Shown here piece by piece: positions 3-62,192 of a stretch of DNA of 64,000 bases (positions are counted from its first letter, which is position 1; each line of letters starts with the position of its first letter). A model generated the notes under the pieces. That model worked only from the letters and a program-made list of their open reading frames with translations. It did no database searches and was not told the origin of the DNA. The stretch is from NCBI GenBank assembly GCA_016235065.1, contig JACRMB010000003.1, positions 1-64,000 on the forward strand. The letters are read 5' to 3'. The position numbers and the translations under genes were made by a program. The DNA comes from Actinomycetota bacterium (GTDB lineage: Bacteria; Actinomycetota; Thermoleophilia; BMS3ABIN01).

Positions 3-578
3 GGGGAAAACGGCTTCTCGGTGGAGCAGGATGCATATGAAGTCGGCAAAGTGGACCTGTCGAAGCCCGACGCATATTTCGGCGATCCCATCACGCTCAC
101 AGGTAGCGGGCAGCTGCCGAACGCAAATCTGGTGATATTCATGGGGGGCGTTTACTCGGGAGACAACGAGATGTATCTGGCGATACTGGGGGAGACTACT
201 TCAGACAGCAGCGGCAACTGGACATTCACATTCACGGTGCCGACGACCTGTACCAAGGAAAGTGACGACTCAACCGTGGAGATATTTCCGGCATACTGGC
301 CTGTAGCTGGTGTGACCGAAGGCCCGGACATCGGGATCTATGCTTCCTGGGCGGATCCGGATCTGCTGGTGTATGGAGCGCCGCCATCGTCGACTCCGAC
401 AGGCACTGAAAACGCGACATACGGGTCAGGTACTTATTCCAGCGCCACCCTGCCTGCGACCGGATCGTTCACAACGATCCTCGGGATAGGGCTGATCGGC
501 GCAGGCGCCTTGTGTTTCTATGCAACCCGCGTGGTATGTTGCCGCAGCAATCCAGGTGAACACAGGAACGGGCAATAA
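3..578 (+). CDS. LPXTG-anchored surface protein, 5' end outside window
   Basis: The frame is open from the left window edge, so the N-terminus is missing; a GTG at 21 is only an internal candidate start. The visible part is Ser/Thr/Gly-rich with a beta-sandwich-like stretch. It ends with LPATG (residues 144-148 counted from the GTG at 21), a hydrophobic segment and a basic tail (RVVCCRSNPGEHR). That is the canonical sortase cell-wall sorting signal of Gram-positive bacteria. Function beyond surface anchoring is not recognisable. It is followed by a strong intrinsic terminator, so it closes its transcription unit. Confidence 0.8.
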   Translation, partial: GENGFSVEQDAYEVGKVDLSKPDAYFGDPITLTGSGQLPNANLVIFMGGVYSGDNEMYLAILGETTSDSSGNWTFTFTVPTTCTKESDDSTVEIFPAYWPVAGVTEGPDIGIYASWADPDLLVYGAPPSSTPTGTENATYGSGTYSSATLPATGSFTTILGIGLIGAGALCFYATRVVCCRSNPGEHRNGQ

Positions 579-634
579 GGCCAGTTCAACCGTAAGGCCT
601 GTTCAGCTGGCTCACGCCTGAAATAGCACGATCC

Positions 635-663
635 GGGCGGGCTCATGGAGCCCGCCCTTTTTT
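635..663 (+). terminator. Rho-independent terminator after the LPXTG gene
   Basis: A perfect 10-bp GC-rich stem (GGGCGGGCTC / GAGCCCGCCC) with a 3-nt loop is followed by six T residues. It separates the surface-protein gene from the fab operon. The rest of the 579-833 gap holds only an AT-rich TATGAT at 739-744, without a convincing -35. Confidence 0.9.
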
Positions 664-833
664 AATCCGCCCAAAGGAACACGATTTCTCCGCACCCGGG
701 ACTTCGGCAAACAGGACCCCACGCACGCCTCCCCCGTTTATGATAATCTTTTTGCGTCCTGGCTACGGATCCAGGGCGGCCTGTCAGACTAAAAACACCA
801 GCAACCACGAGAAATCCCCGGGAGAGACTAAGC

Positions 834-1274
834 ATGACAGAGCTCAACCGTGAACAGATAAAAAAGATCATTCCTCACCGCGACCCCTTCCTTTTCCTTG
901 ACGAGGTTGTCGAGCTTGTGCCCGGCGAGAAGGTGGTGGCCATCAAGTCGGTAAGGCTGGAAGAGCCGCACTTCAAGGGCCATTTTCCCGGCAGGCCGAT
1001 CATGCCAGGCGTACTCATTGTTGAAGCACTGGCCCAGGCCGGAGCGGTAGCGGCACTTTCCACATCCGGTAACGAGGGCAAGCTGGTGCTGTTCGCGGGC
1101 ATAGACGGGGTCCGTTTCAAGCAGCCGGTGGTCCCCGGCGATACGTTGAGGCTCGAAGTCGAGATGACCCGCATGCGCGGTGCCATCGGCAAGGCTGACG
1201 CACGGGCTCTGGTAGATGGCAAGCTTGCCTGCAAGGCCGAGCTGACTTTCGCTATCGCTGAGAGGGAGGCGTGA
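834..1274 (+). CDS. fabZ: 3-hydroxyacyl-ACP dehydratase FabZ
   Basis: The protein has 146 residues, the normal FabZ length. It dehydrates 3-hydroxyacyl-ACP in the fatty-acid elongation cycle, in the cytoplasm. The hot-dog-fold signature [14 protein letters not shown] is at residues 47-59, giving catalytic His50 and Glu64 in [10 protein letters not shown]. The ATG follows a GGGAGAG Shine-Dalgarno-like sequence. It is the first gene of a co-directional operon running to accA; fabH starts 55 bases downstream. A FabA-type isomerase is unlikely from the sequence. Confidence 0.95.
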
Positions 1275-1329
1275 GTTTGCCCACTACCCGGTCCGCGGCC
1301 ACGACATCCTTGCCGGCAAGACGCCTCAG

Positions 1330-2337
1330 GTGAATCCCAGAAAGGTAAAAATCTCCGCTGTCGGCACCCATGTGCCGGAGCGCATAGTGACCAATGACGA
1401 GCTGTCGCTCACCCTCGACACCTCCGATGAGTGGATTTCAACCCGCAGCGGCATCCGGGAGCGCCGAATCGCCGCCGACAACGAGGCCGCGAGCGACCTG
1501 GGGGCTATTGCCGCATCACGCGCTCTCGAAGCCGCCTCTGTCAGGCCTGAAGAACTCGACCTGATCATAGTCGCCAGCCTGTCACCAGATATGCTTTTCC
1601 CTCCGACCGCCTCGTTCATCTCGGGCAAGATCGGTGCTGACGGCACTCCGGCCTTCGACCTTTCCGCCGCCTGCACAGGTTTCATCTACGCGTTGGCCAC
1701 CGGTAGCTCGTTCATCGCTTCCGGACAGGCCGATAAAGTGCTGGTCGTAGGTGCCGAGGTCGTCTCCAAGATGATAGACTGGACCGACCGCGGCACCGCT
1801 GTCCTTTTTGGAGATGGGGCTGGCGCGGTATTGCTCGAGGCCGCCGCTGGCGACGACGAAGGCATCCTCGGGTTCGATCTGGGGAACGACCCCACTGGTG
1901 CGGATCTGTTGAATCTACCGGCCGGGGGATCCCGTGAGCCGGCATCTGAAGAGACTGTCGCTGCGCGAAGGCATTCGATCCGGATGAACGGTGGCGAAGT
2001 CTTCAAGTTCGCCACCAGGATAATCGCGTCTTCTTGTCGCGAAGTCCTTTCCCGGCAAGGTTGCCAGGTCGAAGATGTGGATCTGTTCATACCGCATCAG
2101 GCCAATATCCGCATCATCGATTCAGCCGCCAAGAAGCTTGGGATCGCACCCGACCGTGTGTTCTCAAATCTGGAACGATATGGCAATACATCCTGTGCCT
2201 CGATTCCCCTCTGTCTGGACGAGGCGGCGGCCGCCGGCAGGATCAGCGGCGGCGAGCTGGTTCTGATGGTTGGATTCGGAGCCGGTCTGTCCTGGGGCTC
2301 GTGCCTGGTTCGCATGGGCGAGCTCAAAAGGATCTAG
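1330..2337 (+). CDS. fabH: beta-ketoacyl-ACP synthase III
   Basis: The 335-residue thiolase-fold enzyme initiates fatty-acid synthesis by condensing acyl-CoA with malonyl-ACP. The Cys-His-Asn triad is complete: C115 in SAACTGF, H256 in IPHQANI and N286 in YGNTS. The GTG at 1330 is the chosen start because the family motif around VGTHVPER follows directly; no strong ribosome-binding site precedes it. A 20-codon frame (GTG at 1271, stop at 1331-1333) overlaps both the fabZ stop and this start. It may couple translation or be chance. Confidence 0.95.
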   Translation: MNPRKVKISAVGTHVPERIVTNDELSLTLDTSDEWISTRSGIRERRIAADNEAASDLGAIAASRALEAASVRPEELDLIIVASLSPDMLFPPTASFISGKIGADGTPAFDLSAACTGFIYALATGSSFIASGQADKVLVVGAEVVSKMIDWTDRGTAVLFGDGAGAVLLEAAAGDDEGILGFDLGNDPTGADLLNLPAGGSREPASEETVAARRHSIRMNGGEVFKFATRIIASSCREVLSRQGCQVEDVDLFIPHQANIRIIDSAAKKLGIAPDRVFSNLERYGNTSCASIPLCLDEAAAAGRISGGELVLMVGFGAGLSWGSCLVRMGELKRI

Positions 2338-2345
2338 GAGATAAC

Positions 2346-3308
2346 ATGACCAATCGTGTCTGTGAGCTGCTTGAGATAGATCACCCGATAATCCAGGGCG
2401 GCATGTCCTGGGTAAGCGATGCAAGCCTTGCGGCAGCTGTTTCCAACGGCGGCGGCCTTGGCATCATCGGCGCGGGCGCCATGCCGCCCGAGATCCTTCG
2501 TGAAGAGATAGCAAGGACCCGTGAACTCACGGACCGTCCCTTCGGCGTCAACATGATCATGATCAATCCCGAATTCGGCGACCAGCTCGAAGTCGTGATG
2601 AAAGAGAAGCCACCAGTATTGACCCTGGGCGCAGTGCAAAGCACCACAGTAATCCCTGACATCAAGGCAAAGGGGATCAAGGTTTTGCCGGTGATCGCCG
2701 CGGTCGCGATGGCGAGGCGGGCAGAGCAGCATGGGGCCGACGCCGTCATCGCAGAAGGCTGTGAGGCTGGCGGCCACATAGGCGAGACGACCACAATGGT
2801 CCTTACCCCACTCATATCGCGATCGGTGGAAATACCGGTCCTCGCGGCCGGTGGCATCGTCGACGGCGCCACCATGGTGGCCGCATTCGCGCTCGGAGCA
2901 GAGGGCGTTCAGATGGGCACCCGTTTCGTCTGCGCGACCGAGTGCACTGTCCACGAGGCGGTCAAGGAGAAGTTTATCAAGGCCGGCGACAGGGCCACCG
3001 TCGTGACCGCTAGGGCTATCGGTTATCCGGTCAGGTCCATCAAGAACAAGCTCGCGAGCAACTACGTCGACCTCGAGCGCGACTTTCTTCTAGGCAAGCG
3101 TTCGGTCGAGGAGATTGAACGGTATGGCCTCGGCAAACTCCGGGAGGCCATGCGCGAAGGCAACGTCAAGGACGGGTCGATGATGGCCGGTCAGGACGTG
3201 GCCCTCGTAGACAGGATCCAGCCAGCTGCCGAGATAATCAGCGAGATCGTCGCCGAAGCGGAATCAGAGGCAGAAAAGCTTATGTCACGGCTGACACTCA
3301 GGCGCTAG
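2346..3308 (+). CDS. fabK: enoyl-ACP reductase II FabK (FMN-dependent)
   Basis: This 320-residue TIM-barrel flavoprotein is of the FabK/nitronate monooxygenase family. In a fab operon it should reduce enoyl-ACP in the last elongation step. It shows the N-terminal PIIQGGM motif and GCEAGGHIG with His144, the position of the catalytic His in studied FabK proteins, plus the FMN-phosphate glycines in AAGGI. The ATG at 2346 has an AGGAG 5 bases upstream. The same frame stays open much further upstream, but that part overlaps fabH and shows no family similarity. No FabI- or FabL-type reductase is present, so FabK is the likely enoyl reductase here. Confidence 0.93.
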   Translation: MTNRVCELLEIDHPIIQGGMSWVSDASLAAAVSNGGGLGIIGAGAMPPEILREEIARTRELTDRPFGVNMIMINPEFGDQLEVVMKEKPPVLTLGAVQSTTVIPDIKAKGIKVLPVIAAVAMARRAEQHGADAVIAEGCEAGGHIGETTTMVLTPLISRSVEIPVLAAGGIVDGATMVAAFALGAEGVQMGTRFVCATECTVHEAVKEKFIKAGDRATVVTARAIGYPVRSIKNKLASNYVDLERDFLLGKRSVEEIERYGLGKLREAMREGNVKDGSMMAGQDVALVDRIQPAAEIISEIVAEAESEAEKLMSRLTLRR

Positions 3309-3316
3309 GAACAACC

Positions 3317-4243
3317 TTGGGCAAGCTCGTCTTCGTCTTTCCCGGTCAGGGATCACAATCTGTTGGAATGGGCAGAGAGTTCGTCGATGCCTGTGAACCC
3401 GCCGCCGCCGTCTACGCCGCCGCCGCTGAGGAGCTTGGCATGGATGTGGCGAAGCTCAGCTTCGACGGTCCTGTGGAGAGTCTCGGACGTACCGAGAACG
3501 CCCAGCTGGCGCTTTTCGTCAACAGCATGGCCGTACAGGCGGTGATTTCCGAAACGACTCAATTGAAAGCGGATATAGTCACGGGACACAGCCTCGGCGA
3601 ATACAGCGCCCTGGCGGCAGCGGGAGCCTTCAGCTTCACTGACGGACTCCTGCTGGTAGCCAGCCGCGGAAAAGCCATGAGCGAGGCCACGGTGGAGCGG
3701 CCGGGAACCATGGCGGCCATCCTCGGCCTGGAAGACAAAAAGGTCGAATCGATCTGCTCGGAAGCCGGCGAGGTCTGGCCTGTGAATTACAACAGCCCCG
3801 GCCAGCTGGTGATAAGTGGTGAAAAAGCTTCTGTCGAGCGGGCAATGCTCCAGGCAGAGAAGGCCGGGGCAAAGAAAACAGTCCAGCTAGCCGTGAGTGG
3901 TTCGTTCCATAGCCCCATGATGCGGCCGGCGGCAGGTGTGATGAAGGAAAAGCTGGCCATGGTGGAATTCCATGAACCGTCACCGGCTTTCATCTCCAGC
4001 ATCAGCTGTGAATACGAAAGCGCAGGAGGATTAGGCGAGCTGCTGGTACGCCAGATCGTATCACCAGTGCGGTGGCGCCAGACTGTCGAGCGGCTTATAG
4101 AAGACGGCGCCGACCGATTCCTCGAAGTTGGCAATGGCAAGGTCTTGTGCGGGCTCATCCGGCGCATCAACAGGGACGTAGTAGCGGTGAACGTTTCAGA
4201 TCCCGCAAGCCTTGAGAAGGCGATCGTGGCCCTGCAGTCATAG
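3317..4243 (+). CDS. fabD: malonyl-CoA:ACP transacylase
   Basis: This 308-residue alpha/beta enzyme loads malonyl groups onto acyl carrier protein. It shows the N-terminal FPGQGSQ motif, the nucleophile Ser92 in GHSLGE and a downstream SGSFHSPMM bearing the catalytic His. It starts with TTG 8 bases after the fabK stop, preceded by AGGA, which implies co-transcription. The length is normal for the family and nothing is missing. Confidence 0.94.
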   Translation: MGKLVFVFPGQGSQSVGMGREFVDACEPAAAVYAAAAEELGMDVAKLSFDGPVESLGRTENAQLALFVNSMAVQAVISETTQLKADIVTGHSLGEYSALAAAGAFSFTDGLLLVASRGKAMSEATVERPGTMAAILGLEDKKVESICSEAGEVWPVNYNSPGQLVISGEKASVERAMLQAEKAGAKKTVQLAVSGSFHSPMMRPAAGVMKEKLAMVEFHEPSPAFISSISCEYESAGGLGELLVRQIVSPVRWRQTVERLIEDGADRFLEVGNGKVLCGLIRRINRDVVAVNVSDPASLEKAIVALQS

Positions 4244-4316
4244 GGGAGAGCTTTAAGGTACAGGCAGAGAACTATAGTATGGGCATGGAAAAAAGTGGCA
4301 ATGGAAAGAATAAATC

Positions 4317-5084
4317 ATGAACTCAGCAACCAGTAATAATCTTAACCTCGAAGGCCAGGTTGCCCTGGTCACTGGCGCCGCCCGCGGCATTGGCAAGGCA
4401 GCCGCTATAGCCCTGGCGGATGCCGGCGCGGACATCGCCATAAATTATCAGCATAGCGCTGAGGCGGCTGAGGCGCTAGCCGCTGAATTGTCAGCTCTCG
4501 GAGTCAAAAGCGTCCCGGTCCAGGGAGATGTGGCCGATTCGGGCCAGGTGGCCGGGATGATCAAGAAGGCTGAAGCGGCTCTCGGCGGTATCAGTATCCT
4601 GGTCAACAACGCGGGGATAACCCGTGACGGCCTGGTCATGAGGATGAGCGACGAGGATTTCGATGCGGTTATCGCCACCAGTCTGCGAGGCGCCTTTCTT
4701 TGCAGCAAGGCCGTCGCTCGTGGCATGATGAAAGCCCGCAGTGGTTCTATAATCAATGTTTCCAGCGTTATCGGCCGGCGCGGCAATGCCGGGCAGGCCA
4801 ACTACGCCGCAGCTAAAGCGGGGCTTATAGGCCTGACCAAGTCCCTGGCGCGGGAACTGGGGCCACGGGGCGTCAGGGTCAACGCCGTAGCCCCCGGCTA
4901 TGTGGTGACCGACATGACTTCGGAGCTTCCTGAAAATATGAAAGAACAGATCATGGGAAACACACCTCTCGGCAGGCTGGCGAGCCCGGAAGAGATTGCC
5001 AGCGTAATCGCATTCCTGGCTTCGCCGGCGGCTGGCTACATTACCGGGGCGGTCATCCCTGTGGATGGAGGGCTGGGAATATGA
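4317..5084 (+). CDS. fabG: 3-oxoacyl-ACP reductase
   Basis: This 255-residue short-chain dehydrogenase reduces 3-oxoacyl-ACP with NADPH. The Rossmann motif TGAARGIG is at 19-26, NNAG at 97-100, and the catalytic set includes S149/S150, Y163 and K167 (YAAAK). A 73-base gap follows fabD, the longest in the operon, containing a TATAGT box at 4273-4278 that could be a weak internal promoter. The stop overlaps the fabF start by 4 nt (ATGA). The usual acpP gene is not between fabG and fabF. Confidence 0.94.
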   Translation: MNSATSNNLNLEGQVALVTGAARGIGKAAAIALADAGADIAINYQHSAEAAEALAAELSALGVKSVPVQGDVADSGQVAGMIKKAEAALGGISILVNNAGITRDGLVMRMSDEDFDAVIATSLRGAFLCSKAVARGMMKARSGSIINVSSVIGRRGNAGQANYAAAKAGLIGLTKSLARELGPRGVRVNAVAPGYVVTDMTSELPENMKEQIMGNTPLGRLASPEEIASVIAFLASPAAGYITGAVIPVDGGLGI

Positions 5085-53661: not shown

Positions 53662-53973
53662 CTAGCGGCTGCCCATCAGTAGCAGAAAAAGGTCGACTGT
53701 CAATGGTGTCAGCGTCAGATGGTTGCCGGCAAGTTCCAGCGTGACGCTTCCGGAAAGATCCGTATCCAGTTCTTCCGCCAGGCCGACCGCAGCTGACAAT
53801 GCTGCTGCTGAATAAGCAGCGAGCGCCTCGCGGTCGTATTCCTGGTTCCCGGCCGATGCGATCAGGAGTCCGTCGGTAGAGACAAGCATCGCCGCATCGA
53901 TTCCATCGAATTCAAGGTACGGCGACAGGATGCCCTGCAGGGCCTGGCTACTGTTACCGGCTTCCCGGTTCAA
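53662..53973 (-). CDS. roadblock/LC7 domain protein
   Basis: 103 residues with the LC7/MglB fold. GIDAAMLVSTDGLLIASAG is the typical strand-turn-strand start; LAGNHLTLTPL is near the end. Such proteins regulate small GTPases. No MglA-like GTPase lies beside it. The TTG start abuts the parB stop without a gap, so it should be translated with parAB. Confidence 0.8.
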   Translation of the reverse strand: MNREAGNSSQALQGILSPYLEFDGIDAAMLVSTDGLLIASAGNQEYDREALAAYSAAALSAAVGLAEELDTDLSGSVTLELAGNHLTLTPLTVDLFLLLMGSR

Positions 53974-54882
53974 TTAAGTGCTTTCCAGGACATCGATCAT
54001 GCGCTTGAGCTGCTCCTCGTTTTCAAACTCCAACTCCACCTTGCCGCCGCTAGCCACCCAGCGGACCTTGACCGGAAGCCTGAACGCCGAATAGAGAGCA
54101 TCGGTGGTCTCGTCCATCAACTCCTGCCCGACGGGTATCGTGAGTGGTTCCCGGACCCTGCGCCTGTCAGCGCTCTCCTTCTTCGCAAGCTCTTCAGTCT
54201 GTCTTACCGAAAGGCCTTTTTTTGCTACGCGAACCGCCAGTTTCTTCTGCTTTACCCGGTCCGGGACAGCCAGTAGTGCCCGTCCGTGACCCTCACTGAG
54301 TCTCCCCTGCTCGATGAGTTCCTGAACCTCGTCCGGAAGGTCGAGCAGGCGGAGGGTATTGGCGACTGCGGAGCGGCTGCGGCCAAGCTTGGCCGCCAGC
54401 GCTTCCTGGGTGGCGCCGAAGTCCTCCTGCAGGATCGCGTATGCACGGGCGGTGTCGATGGGATTCAGGTCCTCCCTGCTCAGATTCTCGATGAGCGCCA
54501 GTTCGAGCGATTCACCGTCGTTAGCCTCACGGATCACAGCCGGGATCTCCTTGAGGCCGGCGAGCTGAGCCGCTCGCCAGCGGCGCTCACCCGCGACTAA
54601 CTCGTAGCGCTCTCCATGGCGGCGGACGACGACCGGCTGGACCAGACCGACCGCTTTCAGGGATTCAGCAAGTTCCGCGAGGGCCTCGTCGTCGAAGATG
54701 GTGCGTGGCTGCTTGGGATTACCATGTATTTGACTTACAGGTAATACCTGGTAGCTTGAATCAGTGCGGCCGGAATCAGCAGCTGCCGCTGCCGGGGGAC
54801 CGGTGACAGTAACACCTTTAGTATCACCTATCAACGCAGCAAGTCCGCGGCCCAGACCTTTGTTGCCTTTGGGATTACTCAC
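53974..54882 (-). CDS. parB: chromosome partitioning protein ParB
   Basis: 302 residues. KGLGRGLAALIG opens the protein, and GERRWRAAQLAG and LIENLSREDLNPIDTA mark the CTP-binding ParB domain. A helix-turn-helix follows (GATQEALAAKLGRSRSAVANTLRLL). It loads at parS and spreads to organise the origin region. The GTG at 54882 overlaps the parA stop by 8 nt with AGGTGG upstream. A longer frame to 54978 overlaps parA and is not family-like. Confidence 0.95.
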   Translation of the reverse strand: MSNPKGNKGLGRGLAALIGDTKGVTVTGPPAAAAADSGRTDSSYQVLPVSQIHGNPKQPRTIFDDEALAELAESLKAVGLVQPVVVRRHGERYELVAGERRWRAAQLAGLKEIPAVIREANDGESLELALIENLSREDLNPIDTARAYAILQEDFGATQEALAAKLGRSRSAVANTLRLLDLPDEVQELIEQGRLSEGHGRALLAVPDRVKQKKLAVRVAKKGLSVRQTEELAKKESADRRRVREPLTIPVGQELMDETTDALYSAFRLPVKVRWVASGGKVELEFENEEQLKRMIDVLEST

Positions 54883-55633
54883 GCTCAACCACCTCCGTAG
54901 CCAGATCGAAATACGCGTCAGAACCGGCGCATGTAGCATCATAATGAGATATTGGCATACCAAAACTCGGCGCTTCACTCAACCTGACATTGCGGGGGAT
55001 GACCGTCCTGTAGATCAGCTCCGGGAAATGTGAGCGGACTTCCTGGACGACCTGTGTTGAAAGCCGGGTCCTGGGATCGTACATCGTCATCAGCAGGCCA
55101 GCCACCTGGAGCCGTGGATTAAGCCCCGCCCGGATAGCCTCGACTGTCTGCATCAGCTGCCCGAGCCCTTCGAGGGCGTAGTACTCACACTGGATAGGGA
55201 CGATGACCTTGTCTGCGGCAACAAGCGCATTCAGTGTCAACAGGCCGAGAGATGGCGGGCAGTCGATGAAAAGGTAGTCGAAGCTGTGGGCGATGGATTT
55301 GAGAGCCTCGTCGAGGATATATTCCCTCCGGTCCCTGGAAGGCAGCTCGACCGCGGTGCCAGCAAGGTCGGGAGTCGAGGGGATCAGATAAAGGTTGCGG
55401 ACATCCGTCGTGATGACAGCATCGGCGGCGGGAGCATCTCCGGAAAAGACATCATACGAGGACGGACCCTCGATATCGTGCACACCCAGGCCATGAGTAG
55501 CATTGCATTGGGGATCGATATCGATCAGCAGCACCGTTGCCCCGGCTTCGGCAAGGCAGACTGCTGTGTTGACGCAGGTTGTGGTTTTGCCCACGCCGCC
55601 CTTCTGATTAGCAACAACGTAGGTTTTACCCAA
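54875..55633 (-). CDS. parA: chromosome partitioning ATPase ParA/Soj
   Basis: 252 residues. The deviant Walker A is ANQKGGVGKTTT, Walker A' LLIDIDPQCNATHG and Walker B YLFIDCPPSLGLLT. It cooperates with ParB to segregate the chromosome origin. It starts with TTG and has AGGTTGA upstream; its end overlaps parB. It follows rsmG after a 90-base gap, which contains a TAGAAT box (55679-55674, minus). Confidence 0.95.
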   Translation of the reverse strand: MGKTYVVANQKGGVGKTTTCVNTAVCLAEAGATVLLIDIDPQCNATHGLGVHDIEGPSSYDVFSGDAPAADAVITTDVRNLYLIPSTPDLAGTAVELPSRDRREYILDEALKSIAHSFDYLFIDCPPSLGLLTLNALVAADKVIVPIQCEYYALEGLGQLMQTVEAIRAGLNPRLQVAGLLMTMYDPRTRLSTQVVQEVRSHFPELIYRTVIPRNVRLSEAPSFGMPISHYDATCAGSDAYFDLATEVVERE

Positions 55634-55723: not shown

Positions 55724-56428
55724 TCAGGCTAATGGCCTCTTTTTTGCCATGCCAGGACGCCGGGGAAAACGGTCAGGAGTACGAATTAGCTTGGTAAGCA
55801 CCCAGACATGAAGGTTTTTTGAATCCGGATAAGGATGGACACTCTCGATTCTATCCAGCCTGCCGCCCAGCTGACCGGCGACCGCGCTGGCTGTGGATTC
55901 ATCTCCTTCTTCTCTGGCGCCACGCTGCAATAAAACCGCCCCGGCAGGCTTTACCAGTGGCAAGACGTACTCGATGACGACAGCAAGCGGGCCTACCGCA
56001 CGGGCAATCGCCAGATCAAAACGATCACGCTGTTCGCCGAGTGCAGCCTCCTCGGCGCGTGCTCGGATGGTCTTTACATTATCGATCTCAAGCAGCTCAA
56101 TTGCTTCGTCGATAAAATCGCACTTTTTTGAACTTGCCTCCAGTAGCGAAAAGGATTTATCCGGACAGGCTATAGCCAGGGGAAGGCCGGGAAAACCGGC
56201 GCCGCTGCCGATATCCACGATATTCTGCGCCCCTGCGAACTCCTCAAAGCCAATCAGACTGAGGCTGTCCCTGAAATGGAAGTCGACGATTTTTCTCTCG
56301 CTGGTCACAGCAGTCAGATTTCGATCGGAAATACTGGCCAGGAAGTCCAGAAGGGCCTGAAGCTTCGAGATCTGATCGACAGAGAGAGGATATTCAGAGG
56401 CTATCTCCATTTTCCAGCTCATTGGCAT
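55724..56428 (-). CDS. rsmG: 16S rRNA (guanine-N7) methyltransferase RsmG
   Basis: 234 residues. Class I methyltransferase fold with [17 protein letters not shown] (SAM site), [14 protein letters not shown] and the N-terminal FHFRDSL. It methylates G527 of 16S rRNA in E. coli. It overlaps mnmG by 10 nt; an ATG at 56422 would give a 4-nt ATGA overlap instead. The gidA-gidB order is standard near bacterial origins. Confidence 0.92.
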
Positions 56429-58293
56429 CGTGCGTGCAGGAAAATGGAGAGGACGGATATGTCTGCGGGAGAGACTCCGGCGATTCGCGAAGCCTGGCCT
56501 AATGAGAGCGGTCTTATCCGGGAGAGCTTCTCTCTGGCCTCGGCGGTGATACCAGGAAGGTCTTCATAACTGAAATCCAGTGGGATCTCGCTGTTTTCCA
56601 GGCGCGACTGGCGATTTATCTGCTCCTGTTGCCTTGATATATAGCCTTCATATTTTATCTCGATGCCTGCCCTCTGGATTATTTCTGTATCAGGCGCAGG
56701 GCTGCCTGGATCGAGCAGAAAAGGAAGGAGGTCATCGACTTCCAGCTCAGGCCGCTTTAACAGGCGAGCCGCGGACTGCGGCTCAGTGATCATGGAGCTG
56801 CCTTTTTGCGCCAGCAGGGTATTAACGGCGTCATCAGCTGGAATCCGGACATCGTGAATACGTGAGATGAGCTGCTCGAGCGCACACTGACTTGCATCGA
56901 TCAGATCCATATTTCTGAGCGGCACAAGGCCGATCTGGAAACCTTTGGGAGCAAGCCGCGCATGAGCATTGTCATGACGTAACAGCAAGCGATACTCAGC
57001 TCTCGATGTGAACATTCGATACGGCTCGTCTACATCTTTTGTCACCAGGTCATCAATAAGGACGCCTATATAGGCTTCTGAGCGTTTCAAAATCAGCGGA
57101 GCATCACCTTTTACGGAAAGAGCAGCGTTTATGCCGGCTATAAGCCCCTGGGCTGCGGCTTCCTCGTAACCGCTGGTCCCATTGATCTGGCCGGCCAGAA
57201 AAAGCCTCGAAACCGCTTTTGTCTCCAGGGAAAGGCGAAGTTGGCTCGGATAGATGTAATCATACTCGACTGCATACCCTGGGCGCATAAGACGGGCGTT
57301 TTCCAGCCCAGGCGTTGCCCGTATCACTTTTTCCTGTACCCAGACAGGAAGGCTTGTTGTAAGGCCTTGCAGGTAGAGTTCATTGGTGTGCCGGCCCTCC
57401 GGCTCTACAAACACTGGATGACGATCACGGTCGGGAAAATTCATGACCTTCCGGTCGATAGAAGGGCAATAGCGGGGACCTTTGCCACTTACAGAACCAG
57501 TCTTGATTGGGGAAAGATGAAGATATTTTCGGACGACATCGTGCGTCGCAGATGTCGTGTATGTCAGATAACAGGGAATCTGCTCCTGAGGCTCCGGCCT
57601 GGAGAAAGGAGAAAAGGTTGGAGGAACTAAATCGCCTGGCTCAAGGGACATTTTCCCAGGGTCGACTGACCGTGAATCGATACGCGGTGGAGTAGCAGAC
57701 TGAAAACGGCCAAGATCAAGGGAATTGGCTTCAAGGCTCTCAGATAGTTGCAGGGCCGGCGGTTCTCCCATGCGGCCTGCGGGAAAGCGAAGATCTCCAA
57801 TAACGATATTTCCCCGGAGGAAAGTGCCGCAGGCCAGAACCAGCGATTTGGTCTTAATCAGACTGCCATCAGCGAGTTTTACTCCTGCGATTGTTTCACG
57901 TGAAACATGTATGCCGGCAGCGACACCTTCAAGGATTTTAAGGTTGGCTTCAGCAGCGAGCACTTTCTTCATATTGTCTTCGTAAAGCTTCTTGTCTGCC
58001 TGAGCTCTCAGCGCTCTCACAGCCGGTCCTTTTCCGGTATTTAGGGTTTTCATCTGGATAAAGGAGCGGTCTGTGTTGCGTCCCTGCTCTCCACCCAGGG
58101 CATCGATCTCCCTGGTCAGCTGACCTTTGCCGACCCCGCCAATAGCGGGATTACAGGGCATGAGGCCGATCTTCTCAAGGTTGATAGTAAGCAGAAGTGT
58201 GGTACAGCCCATCCTGGCCGCGGCCAGGGCTGCTTCGCAGCCTGCGTGCCCGCCGCCTACCACTACGACATCGAATGCCCCCTCGCCGCTCAT
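56419..58293 (-). CDS. mnmG: tRNA uridine-5-carboxymethylaminomethyl modification enzyme MnmG (GidA)
   Basis: 624 residues from the chosen ATG. FAD motif [20 protein letters not shown], then [25 protein letters not shown] and [13 protein letters not shown]. The C-terminal helical domain is complete. With MnmE it modifies wobble uridines in tRNA. The start at 58293 gives the usual short lead before FDVVVVGGG; a longer frame to 58389 overlaps the previous gene. A perfect parS lies within it (57892-57907). Confidence 0.94.
57892..57907. promoter_or_regulatory. parS: parS centromere site
   Basis: TGTTTCACGTGAAACA, the exact 16-bp consensus ParB-binding palindrome, lies inside mnmG, where it encodes VSRET. 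It is 3 kb from parB and marks this as origin-proximal DNA. Confidence 0.92.
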
Positions 58294-58366
58294 GCGGCCT
58301 GGCCAGTGATGTAGCGGAGATCCCACAGGATCGTCGCTAACGGCTTCATCTCGTGGGCGACCTTCA

Positions 58367-59500
58367 TCAGCAGCCGCTTTCTTCATCAACCCGGATGGTC
58401 ACCGGTCTGTTCGGCTTGTGGACGATCCGGTCGATCAGCGAATCAAGAAGTGGAGCCGGACCCTCCGGGCTGATGATGCCCGTCGGGGAGCGCGGATCTG
58501 TGTCCGGGCCGGAATCCGGGCCAGGCTCTGCCGCCATGCCGGCGAAAAGGCCAGCTGCTGCCGCCCTGCCGGCAACCAGGCCGAGCGCCGCCGCTTCTGT
58601 GTAGTTGCAGCCTCCGGCCGCCCTCCCGGCAAGGAAGAGCCCTGGCCTGGAAACAGACCCAAGATTCTCGCCGACCTGCTCCGCCGCCGTCACTTCGTGG
58701 AGGACCATATATGACGCCCTGGTCATCCAGGCGTGTTCCAGGCCCGCATGACTTCGGACCCCCTCCAATTGGCTGGTGCGGTCACCTTCAGTCTCCATCC
58801 CAAGCGCGTATAGTTCATCCAGCTGCTGGCCATCACGAAACAGCACATCCGGGGCAACCAGATCCCGCTCGACCGTACTCGAAGAAAGCCGTGGAGAGGT
58901 CCTCGCCCAGACTTCGGCGAGCTCGACGCCCAGCTCCTTCAGGCAGACAGCCAGAGAGTCCGAGGGAATCTCTGCCCAGCGGCCACCAGGAGTGACCTCA
59001 TCGCCATCAACGATCCGGCCATGCAGGAAAGTGCCGGCAGCGACAACCACCGAGGCTGCGCTGAATCTTTCAGACAGGCTCGTCGTGACAAGCCAATCCC
59101 GGCCCCGAGGCTCCAGGTTCGTGACCAGAGCCTGCCGCAGTTCCAGACCGCTGGCATTTTCAAGAGTCTCCTTCCAGGCGAGGCCCAAAAGGCGTCTGTC
59201 GACCAACAGACAGCCGGAGCTGTTGTCAATAGTGGCAACACCTTCCTTCTCCAGCAAGCCCGGCAATCTTCCACCAAGAGTCCCGACCTCTTTCAATAGC
59301 GCGTGACGACGGTCCACACTGTCGTCGGCTAGGATCGGTGTCGCCGGCGGGAAGCCGACCATGTCGAGATTTATCGTGAGGCATAAAACAGTCGCTCCGG
59401 CGCTGGCTGCGGCCAGCGCCGCTTCGCATCCTGCCGGGCCGGCGCCTATTACCAGGACGTCATATCTTGGGGATTCGATATCTTCAGACAAGTCCGTCAT
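58367..59500 (-). CDS. truncated GidA/MnmG-like FAD protein (MnmG paralogue)
   Basis: 377 residues, homologous to the FAD-binding half of Mnm[44 protein letters not shown] and [14 protein letters not shown]. It lacks the C-terminal tRNA/MnmE-binding helical domain, and the MPCNPAIGG motif is replaced by [10 protein letters not shown]. It is placed between mnmE and mnmG on the same strand, 21 bases after mnmE, and it ends upstream of the mnmG ATG. TrmFO-like or novel tRNA-related function is possible; none can be assigned. Confidence 0.8.
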
Positions 59501-59521: not shown

Positions 59522-60904
59522 CTACTTGCCGATGCAGAATTCGCGGAAGATGGTCTCCAGCAGGTCTTCGACGATCTCTTCGCCGGTGATCGCGCCGAGC
59601 GATGTGAGCGCCCCCCTCAGTTCTTCAGCGATAAGCTCTTCGCCAATGCCGACCCGCAGCCCCTGGCGGGCCCTGCCTAAAAAGACACGTGACTGTTCCA
59701 GCAGAAGCCGGTGCCTCTCGTGGGTGACGATAGGCCCTTCGAGCGGAGGCAGCGAGCCGCCCAGCACCAGTTGGGCGATCCTCTCTTTCAGCACCTGCAT
59801 CCCCTGGCGGGTCATGGCTGAGATCACGACAGGCTCCGCAGGCAGCAGGCCGCGGTTGAAACGGGGCGCCTGGCCCCGGAAGCGGTCACATTTGTTGATC
59901 ACATAGATCGCCCTGTCAGCGGGAACCGAAGTCAGCAGGGCGCGGTCATGGTCGTCCTCGGGTTCGCTGCCATCGAACATGCAGATTATGAGGTCGGCCT
60001 CCTTCATGGCGCGGCGGCTGCGATCGACTCCTATCTGCTCTACTTCGTCCTCTGCGGGCCGGAGGCCGGCGGTGTCGATCAACTGCAGGGGGATTCCCTG
60101 GATATTGATGATTTCCTCGATAGTGTCGCGGGTAGTGCCCGGGATCTCGGTGACGATCGCCCGCTCCCGCATCAGCAACGAATTGAGCAGGCTGGATTTG
60201 CCGACATTGGGTTTACCGACGATAGCAGTGCGTACTCCCTCGTTGAGCACGCGGCCGATGAAAGCCGTATCGATCAGCTCCTGAAGACGCTCCTCGATCT
60301 GGCCGAGCCGCTCGTCAGCGGTCTCGCGGTCGAGCTCCTCGATATCCTCGTCTGAGAAGTCGATATCGGCTTCGATCGCTGCCATGACTGCCAGGATCGA
60401 GAGCCTTAAAGTTCGCATCTCCGCTGAGATCGAGCCATCGAGCTGGGACATGGCGACGCGCAGACCGGCCTCGGTCTTGGCGCCTATGATCTGGGCGACG
60501 CTTTCAGCCTGGGCAAGGTCTATGCGGCCATTGAGAAAGGCGCGACGGGTGAATTCCCCGGGTGAAGCCAGCTGCGCTCCCTGTTCGAGGAATAGCGAAA
60601 GCAGCTTCTGCTGGGCGACCGGACCACCATGGCAGTTGACCTCGACGATATCTTCCCTTGTATAGGTTCCGGGCGCCCGCATCACGCCCACGAGGACCTC
60701 GTCGACCAGTGCTCCGGATCCCGGGTCATGGATCGCCCCATAAGAGAGACTGTGCGATGGTGCTTCGGCGAGATCCTTCCCGCCGGGCTGGCTGAACAGG
60801 CGGCCGCAGATATCAACGGCTTCAGGCCCGGTCATGCGGACGATACCGATCGCACCCGCCCCCATGGGTGTCGAGATCGCAGCTATGGTCGGAACTTCAT
60901 GCAT
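59522..60904 (-). CDS. mnmE: tRNA modification GTPase MnmE (TrmE)
   Basis: 460 residues. N-terminal tetrahydrofolate-binding domain; GTPase motifs IVGKPNVGKSSLLNSL (G1), IPGTTRD (G2), LIDTAGLR (G3) and NKCD (G4). It ends with the conserved FCIGK. It forms the MnmEG complex with MnmG. The ATG has no ribosome-binding site; an extended -10 element 7 bases upstream suggests a leaderless mRNA. The usual yidC-jag-rnpA-rpmH genes upstream are missing. Confidence 0.94.
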   Translation of the reverse strand: MHEVPTIAAISTPMGAGAIGIVRMTGPEAVDICGRLFSQPGGKDLAEAPSHSLSYGAIHDPGSGALVDEVLVGVMRAPGTYTREDIVEVNCHGGPVAQQKLLSLFLEQGAQLASPGEFTRRAFLNGRIDLAQAESVAQIIGAKTEAGLRVAMSQLDGSISAEMRTLRLSILAVMAAIEADIDFSDEDIEELDRETADERLGQIEERLQELIDTAFIGRVLNEGVRTAIVGKPNVGKSSLLNSLLMRERAIVTEIPGTTRDTIEEIINIQGIPLQLIDTAGLRPAEDEVEQIGVDRSRRAMKEADLIICMFDGSEPEDDHDRALLTSVPADRAIYVINKCDRFRGQAPRFNRGLLPAEPVVISAMTRQGMQVLKERIAQLVLGGSLPPLEGPIVTHERHRLLLEQSRVFLGRARQGLRVGIGEELIAEELRGALTSLGAITGEEIVEDLLETIFREFCIGK

Positions 60905-61037: not shown

Positions 61038-62192
61038 TCAGGCTCCCGGCCATGGTCCCGGATAGCTCCGCGGGTTGCCGCAGGAATCCGAGGCGGTGGC
61101 ATAAACCGTAGTACGGAATGATGAGACGCCCGGCGGTACGTTATAGAGGATCGTGAAGCTGGCGCTTGCCCCCGGTGCGATGTTCCCGACCGTCGGTAGT
61201 GGCGGCAGGCTGGTGGCTCCGCCGGTATCCACCGTGCCAACGATGCTGACGCCATAGGCCTCGGCAGCCGCACTGTTGGAGATGGTGTAATCGACGGAGA
61301 GCTGGCGCTGCTGGTAATCGCCCAGGCTCGCCCAGTAAGGAGACGGCCTTGAGACAGACAGCTCAGCCGCTGAACACCAGCTGTTCATCGTCGTCCTGGG
61401 GAGGTAATCTGTGCCGGCTATGCCGGCGGTATAGGGCGTATCGACATAACCGTCGCCATTGGCGTCCGGACCGGTCCAGTTGCTCCAGTAATTACCGCCT
61501 GCCGGCAGACTGGAGTTGAAGTCGTTGATATATGCTGAATCCGCGTCGGCCTGATAGGTGTTGTCTATGAAGTTGTTGTTATAGATGGAGTTATTGCTGG
61601 ATCCCGCCACCCAGAGGCCCCACTGGTTGTTGGCGATGGTGTTGTAGCGCACCAGATTGTTGCCGCCACCGAATACGAGGCCGATGCCGTCCCAGTAGCT
61701 GTTGGTGACTGTGTTTCCTTCGATGACGTTGGAGCTGGATCCCCAGAGGGCGATGCCTTCCTCAGAACTGTTGGAGACTGTATTTCCGATCACGCGGTTG
61801 TTACCGTTGAAGCACAGGAAGACGCCATAGGAGAAATTGGTGAGAACCAGGTTCCTGATCGTGACCCCGCTGAAGCCGTCGTTATAAATACCGTAAGCGC
61901 CGCCGCCGTTCAGCATGTGGCCATTGCCATCAATGGTGATGTTGCTGCTGCCCACCGAGAGAGTAGTCCCGACCTGGTCCGCTGTCAGGGTACAGGTGTG
62001 GCTGTACTGGTCCCAGGCGCCTATCTGGGCGCAGGCCCCATTCGTGTCGCCGTCGACGATCGTCAGTTGTCCAGCGGCTATCGCCTCAGTCCCGGAAATG
62101 GATAAGATGACGACGGACGTCAGAACCAGCAGAATACAAAAAGCAGAAAAAAACCGTGCAGCGCTACCATGCTGAATCACCCGTGATTCCAT
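61038..62192 (-). CDS. secreted right-handed parallel beta-helix (NosD-like) protein
   Basis: 384 residues. A signal peptide (FCILLVLTSVVILSISG, then AIAA) precedes a run of about 22-residue Asn/Gly-rich turns (NRVIGNTVSNSSEEGIALWG, NNLVRYNTIANNQWGLWVAG) typical of NosD/PbH1 coils that bind or cleave polysaccharide. A C-terminal DUF11/CARDB-like beta domain follows. AAGGGGAG precedes the ATG. Probable surface carbohydrate-binding or lyase role, unproven. Confidence 0.8.
   Translation of the reverse strand: MESRVIQHGSAARFFSAFCILLVLTSVVILSISGTEAIAAGQLTIVDGDTNGACAQIGAWDQYSHTCTLTADQVGTTLSVGSSNITIDGNGHMLNGGGAYGIYNDGFSGVTIRNLVLTNFSYGVFLCFNGNNRVIGNTVSNSSEEGIALWGSSSNVIEGNTVTNSYWDGIGLVFGGGNNLVRYNTIANNQWGLWVAGSSNNSIYNNNFIDNTYQADADSAYINDFNSSLPAGGNYWSNWTGPDANGDGYVDTPYTAGIAGTDYLPRTTMNSWCSAAELSVSRPSPYWASLGDYQQRQLSVDYTISNSAAAEAYGVSIVGTVDTGGATSLPPLPTVGNIAPGASASFTILYNVPPGVSSFRTTVYATASDSCGNPRSYPGPWPGA

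Follow-up and report, generated by a model that had tools for sequence, protein, structure and literature searches.

A second, shortened member of the MnmG (GidA) family is encoded between mnmE and mnmG in the genome of an Actinomycetota bacterium (GCA_016235065.1, contig JACRMB010000003.1), of which the stretch from position 1 to 64,000 was analysed and is called here the window. This paralogue was given the name MnmG2, and it is a widespread variant of the MnmG family that had gone unremarked in the open literature searched; no report of MnmG2 or of tandem mnmG genes was found there, most subscription journals lying outside the search. We put the probability at about one half that MnmG2 is a non-catalytic partner, blind to MnmE, in an MnmG-MnmG2 heterodimer in which it takes the place of the subunit that is free of MnmE. 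More tentatively, such a heterodimer could be obligate in deep-branching Actinomycetota, MnmG2 being a repeatedly evolved MnmE-blind pseudoenzyme and the alpha2beta2 state being genetically fixed, with alpha4beta2 never forming. Labels such as f1, f5 and f14 denote genome families, f1 being that of the window genome.

The mnmG2 gene is placed downstream of mnmE, at a spacing of 21 bases, and just upstream of mnmG (Table 1). The translated MnmE ends in FCIGK. An overlap between mnmG2 and mnmG is probably absent, since the conserved start of MnmG fits the ATG at 58293, which is the likely start of the gene. Directly after the parB-like frame there is a gene for a Roadblock/LC7 domain protein (53662-53973, minus strand, E 2.3e-11), possibly a small GTPase regulator beside parAB, and upstream of mnmE a right-handed beta-helix (NosD-like) protein is encoded (61038-62192, minus strand).

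Table 1. Genes of the mnmE-mnmG2-mnmG locus in the window and motifs of MnmG2
Feature	Position	Strand	Basis and remarks
mnmE (GTPase partner)	59522..60904	-	Complete; NCBIfam PRK05291.1-3, 384 bits (cut-off 380)
mnmG2	58367..59500	-	377-aa MnmG/GidA paralogue without catalytic motifs; ORF with ATG start
FAD dinucleotide motif GAGPAG, residues 19-24	59429..59446	-	Retained
Degenerate counterpart of the C47 motif, residues 50-60	59321..59353	-	Shows A at the position of C47 when aligned with E. coli MnmG
C-terminal FAD-side motif, residues 290-304	58589..58633	-	Alignment; counterpart of an MnmG motif
Conserved C-terminal tail, residues 365-377	58370..58408	-	Aligns with the start of an MnmG segment
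mnmG (canonical, complete)	56419..58389 (longest ORF)	-	TIGR00136, 791.7 bits; CNPAIGG and GPRYCPSI present
rsmG (gidB), downstream of mnmG	55724..56428	-	Pfam GidB, 2e-41
parA	54875..55633	-	Pfam AAA_31, 1.2e-59
parB-like ORF	53974..54978	-	Named from its own sequence; related loci also have a homologous ORF after parA

The Pfam profile GIDA (PF01134) matches MnmG2 with an E value of 2.8e-47 and 162.1 bits, the gathering cut-off being 22.1, and it also matches all 20 members of alignment A2. The match falls in two stretches, residues 14-213 covering profile positions 1-206 and a second stretch covering positions of about 291-385; the gap between them corresponds to the middle part, in insertion domain 2, that carries the C277 motif. 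No Pfam match to GIDA_C_1st or SAM_GIDA_C was obtained for MnmG2, while the neighbouring MnmG has both. The score against the NCBIfam equivalog of MnmG (TIGR00136) was 134.5 bits, under the cut-off of 524.85, and by these membership tests MnmG2 is a protein of the GidA superfamily but not an MnmG.

MnmG, the flavoprotein of tRNA U34 cmnm5 synthesis, is like MnmG2 in its homologous fold and its FAD domain, and the two neighbours are about 31% identical. The glycines of the GxGxxG motif (G19, G21 and G24) are invariant in the f1 and f5 alignments of MnmG2, FAD binding itself being a prediction. MnmG2 differs from MnmG in having lost the motifs of both catalytic cysteines (C47 and C277 in E. coli): the alignment gives PPATPIL in place of CNPAIGG, and the GPRYCPSI motif with C277 is missing. 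Motif 1 has largely disappeared as well, insertion domain 2 is reduced to about half, and the helical domain at the C-terminus is absent. A preliminary description of the locus, which had recognized a truncated GidA-like flavoprotein inside the tRNA-modification operon, with its FAD core kept and the NPAIGG motif and the C-terminal MnmE/tRNA-binding domain gone, is borne out in these respects. The C-terminus of the f1 proteins is conserved as RPVTIR....GC, with a terminal cysteine in 12 of the 17 family members. An overlap with the start of mnmG was considered as the cause of this final GC and rejected, as the codons and the downstream sequence differ and mnmG is likely to start 73 bases further.

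The single-chain AlphaFold2 model of MnmG2 (pLDDT 84.7, pTM 0.86) has MnmG structures as its closest solved relatives (9hip_C, 8zu0 and 9hip_D, E about 1e-29, TMq 0.73-0.78; best PDB match E 9e-30). Among the top four matches the lowest rmsd (3.8) belongs to 9hip_D, the subunit free of MnmE. For a member of f5, modelled with a pLDDT of 73, MnmG was likewise the best structure match. A TrmFO-like identity was rejected: TrmFO, the small GidA form (about 440 aa), belongs to the same superfamily and is not far in length, but MnmG2 reaches only 26 bits with TIGR00137 (cut-off 428.65) and its model only a TM of 0.51 with the TrmFO fold. No true TrmFO was found in the window genome.

Beside mnmE and mnmG, mnmG2 is present in 17 of the 18 other f1 genomes, so the reading frame is not a chance one. 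Its products are 40-61% identical to the window protein, compared with mostly 74-83% for the neighbouring MnmG. The exception, G011 (86% complete), gave no strong GIDA match at all, and among the carriers the frame is broken in G003, the only frameshifted copy seen in f1. At least 11 families of the Actinomycetota share the order mnmE-mnmG2, and the longer order mnmE-mnmG2-mnmG-rsmG-parA-parB is constant where contigs span it (f1, f5, f14, f27, f38, f53 and f78); it is partly visible in f15, f57, f66 and f71, where most contigs break off inside the first copy or behind it. Outside f1, twelve genomes of f5 were read, and 17 genomes of f14 have both copies. A single mnmG and no mnmG2 were found in f26 and f65, and in f70 the 2.2 kb that precede mnmG contain no mnmG2. 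Contig ends excepted, no genome of the class sample has mnmG2 without mnmG, and MnmG is missing from most of the class, 111 of 149 genomes having given no strong match. The phylum was assigned as Actinomycetota by WhiB, which occurs in 32 of the 60 genomes sampled and, of 14 controls, in Corynebacterium alone; the MnmG2-bearing genomes of that sample are themselves without WhiB. A scan of named genomes returned only the ordinary MnmG of Firmicutes.

In a mixture-model tree of slowly evolving copies, the MnmG2 proteins of f27, f66 and f14 stand together on one side (99/98), the MnmG proteins of the phylum form a separate group (100/98) and the first copies of the tandem pairs in three Firmicutes genomes form a third (99/96). 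When f1 is added its MnmG2 groups with the other MnmG2 proteins (88/97). A clade of f1 MnmG2 with f1 MnmG, the expectation of a partial duplication of the lineage's own, was rejected in the AU test (p-AU 0.0104), and with it such a duplication. The alternative in which f1 MnmG2 joins the MnmG of the phylum, apart from other MnmG2, was not rejected (p 0.24), and for this reason a single origin of all MnmG2 is likely rather than proven. A grouping of all MnmG2 with the MnmG of the phylum against the outgroups is compatible with the best tree; a tree rooted on TrmFO was distorted by long branches. Judged from these trees the duplication is an old one that probably took place within the phylum. 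Of 101 sampled Firmicutes genomes, four likewise have two mnmG genes in tandem behind mnmE (L167, L168, L169 and L170, in G549, G526, G572 and G553, respectively), and the first copy of G553 lacks C47, C277 and the C-terminal segment, in parallel to MnmG2. A kinship of MnmG2 with these pairs was rejected, as the latter form their own groups in the tree and can be regarded as separate events.

In close pairs of genomes dN/dS was 0.17-0.35 for mnmG2 and 0.05-0.19 for mnmG, which indicates that mnmG2 is under purifying selection, less strictly than mnmG, and which rules out a pseudogene for most genomes.

By the alignments, the catalytic and MnmE-binding parts have been lost repeatedly while mnmG2 stayed in place. 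In full-length forms of MnmG2 (f27, part of f14 and f78) neither cysteine has been lost and the helical domain is present; the variant motif of these proteins is close to CN[ST]-x-[IVF]-GG-[PQ]-GR, and those of f27 and part of f14 also keep motif 1. C47, C277 or both are gone in f1, f5, f53, f38, f15 and about twelve f14 genomes, and the same proteins have lost all or most of the last helical segment. Mapped on the MnmG tree, the intact and lost states need at least four changes by parsimony; if loss is assumed to be irreversible the drawn topology gives about six or seven losses, two of which are forced by the starred branches alone. Contacts and domains were assigned from the E. coli residue lists of a cryo-EM study (PMC12397908), and the shares depend on the alignment. 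At the MnmE-contact positions, 30% are present in f1 MnmG2, with 3% of those identical to E. coli; in f1 MnmG 100% are present and 73% identical. The FAD-domain positions are 99% present in f1 MnmG2, with 37% identity to E. coli (48% for f1 MnmG), and of positions 398-629, in the C-terminal helical domain, 15% are present on average in the same proteins. In motif 1 the MnmG of the phylum reads CPSIDRK, and most full-length MnmG2 as well as the E. coli and Firmicutes proteins read CPSIEDK; this change adjoins K283, whose counterpart in human MTO1 is a disease site (PMC12397908).

The E. coli complex offers a position into which such a protein could fit. In E. coli, MnmG forms a homodimer of which a single subunit engages MnmE in the alpha2beta2 complex; this subunit binds FAD and has its helical domain and motif 1 ordered, whereas subunit D of 9hip, free of MnmE, is without FAD and its helical domain is disordered (PMC12397908). 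By SAXS a single tRNA was found for each MnmG dimer; the authors considered that one subunit may hold MnmE and the other tRNA (PMC12397908). MnmG2 fits the idle position because it has kept the core and shed the parts that touch MnmE. In the proposed mechanism an ancient tandem paralogue of MnmG would have become a non-catalytic, MnmE-blind subunit in the f1 lineage and several others, would pair with catalytic MnmG through the core fold and would permanently replace the subunit that in E. coli is free of MnmE and FAD. This pairing would fix an asymmetric 2:1:1 MnmE:MnmG:MnmG2 complex and block alpha4beta2, and MnmG2 may perhaps help to place the tRNA or to structure the active site of MnmG. 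The sequences show the descent, conservation, gene position and selection of MnmG2 as well as the loss of catalytic and MnmE-contact positions from a protein that retains the FAD-domain fold; heterodimerization, the 2:1:1 stoichiometry, any FAD binding and any effect on tRNA modification are what we infer. The state of subunit D is the one that MnmG2 would fix, although in 9hip both MnmG subunits come from one gene.

An origin separate from MnmG together with purifying selection, as would be looked for in a heterodimer partner, is what the sequences point to. Other results are less favourable to the heterodimer. The evolutionary rates of MnmG2 and MnmG covary weakly (partial Spearman 0.12 over 35 genomes, the MnmG2 distances being near saturation), which leaves the pairing unsupported; the values were 0.68 for MnmE-MnmG and 0.40 for MnmE-MnmG2. 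The full-length MnmG2 proteins with both cysteines may be catalytic, and the ancestral role may thus not have been silent. The dN of MnmG2, 1.3 to 4.6 times that of MnmG in the same genome pairs, might be above the expectation for an obligate tight interface. Moreover, f26 and f65 do without the protein.

MnmG2 could also be a separate flavoenzyme or flavin-binding protein that is translated with the operon and carries out its own reaction outside the MnmG dimer. The FAD motifs of all 17 f1 members, as well as family-specific conserved elements (DRR, RQ, PGGR-x-x-EIP, RPVTIR and the terminal GC, 12/17) that suggest a function of its own, agree with this, and T. thermophilus has a stand-alone protein related to GidA (2cul) whose minimal fold resembles that of MnmG2 (TMt 0.82), although that protein has 232 aa and 20% identity to MnmG2 and was compared by fold and sequence only. 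Nevertheless we regard this explanation as unlikely, as mnmG2 is always flanked by mnmE and mnmG where contigs are long enough, the cysteines known to be catalytic have been lost together with the motif-1 region, and more than half of the positions invariant in f1 vary once three f5 sequences are included, which would not be expected of a conserved active site. A negative regulator that competes with the self-pairing of MnmG, and so poisons or tunes MnmEG, would be served by the same pairing as heterodimer formation, and the position directly upstream of mnmG and the loss of the MnmE contacts would suit it; a long-fixed poison subunit beside its target, with presumably similar expression, would however be costly, and the catalytic-looking full-length proteins of several families do not fit, which makes this role quite improbable.

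It is equally doubtful that MnmG2 was at first another catalytic MnmG, differing in its tRNA or amine preference (glycine or ammonium), of which the truncated forms are slowly decaying remnants. In favour of this, MnmG2 of f27 and part of f14 keeps C47, C277, motif 1 and the helical domain, some Firmicutes have independently acquired tandem pairs of full-length MnmG, and MnmG2 evolves faster, but the truncated forms are under purifying selection, have been kept in 17 of 18 f1 genomes and 12 f5 genomes, longer than a remnant should last, and include only the one frameshifted copy of G003 in f1. A recent, functionless partial duplication of the genome's own mnmG, named in the preliminary description as the outcome that would overturn it, was tested and rejected: nothing was found in its favour, and the low identity to the neighbouring MnmG, the occurrence in at least 11 families and the rejected f1 clade all oppose it. 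The same description had suggested a regulatory or new modification subunit specific to this lineage. An additional subunit of MnmE-MnmG is indeed the most plausible reading; the restriction to one lineage falls, given the number of families and the full-length members with both cysteines, and no evidence pointed towards a new modification; in the window protein the loss of the catalytic cysteines argues against one.

The heterodimer reading has an analogue in the eukaryotic tRNA-guanine transglycosylase QTRT1/QTRT2, in which the bacterial homodimer became a heterodimer with a paralogue lacking catalytic residues (PMC6165067). Both cases concern a wobble-base tRNA enzyme with a dead paralogue as partner; fold and chemistry are unrelated and the likeness is one of analogy only. 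If the proposal is true, MnmG-MnmG2 would be its bacterial parallel. Whether the two subunits of the MnmG dimer act alike, and whether MnmE docks on one of them and tRNA on the other, was left open by the 2025 cryo-EM study (PMC12397908), and if the two positions are encoded by different genes the natural set of genomes, from near-intact to stripped MnmG2, would allow dimer asymmetry to be tested directly. It would also caution that a second gidA match in such genomes need not be an active MnmG.

Some unusual forms were met in related loci. Tandem peptide repeats (e.g. QGGFDTDAVARDGSA, SGDPRNSEDMRFA, VGPSA) are inserted in or before the loops of MnmG2 in L020, L023 and L083 (G002, G006 and G057). 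In L110 (G150, family f12) one 873-aa frame (550-3168, minus strand) covers MnmG (15-625) and RsmG (673-871), apparently as a natural fusion, and is preceded by a 229-aa fragment of MnmG2. The MnmG2 of L105 (G153, family f15; 3873-4895, minus strand) combines an unusual N-terminal half with a C-terminal part that shares 62% identity with the MnmG of the window, as if it had been partly overwritten by gene conversion.
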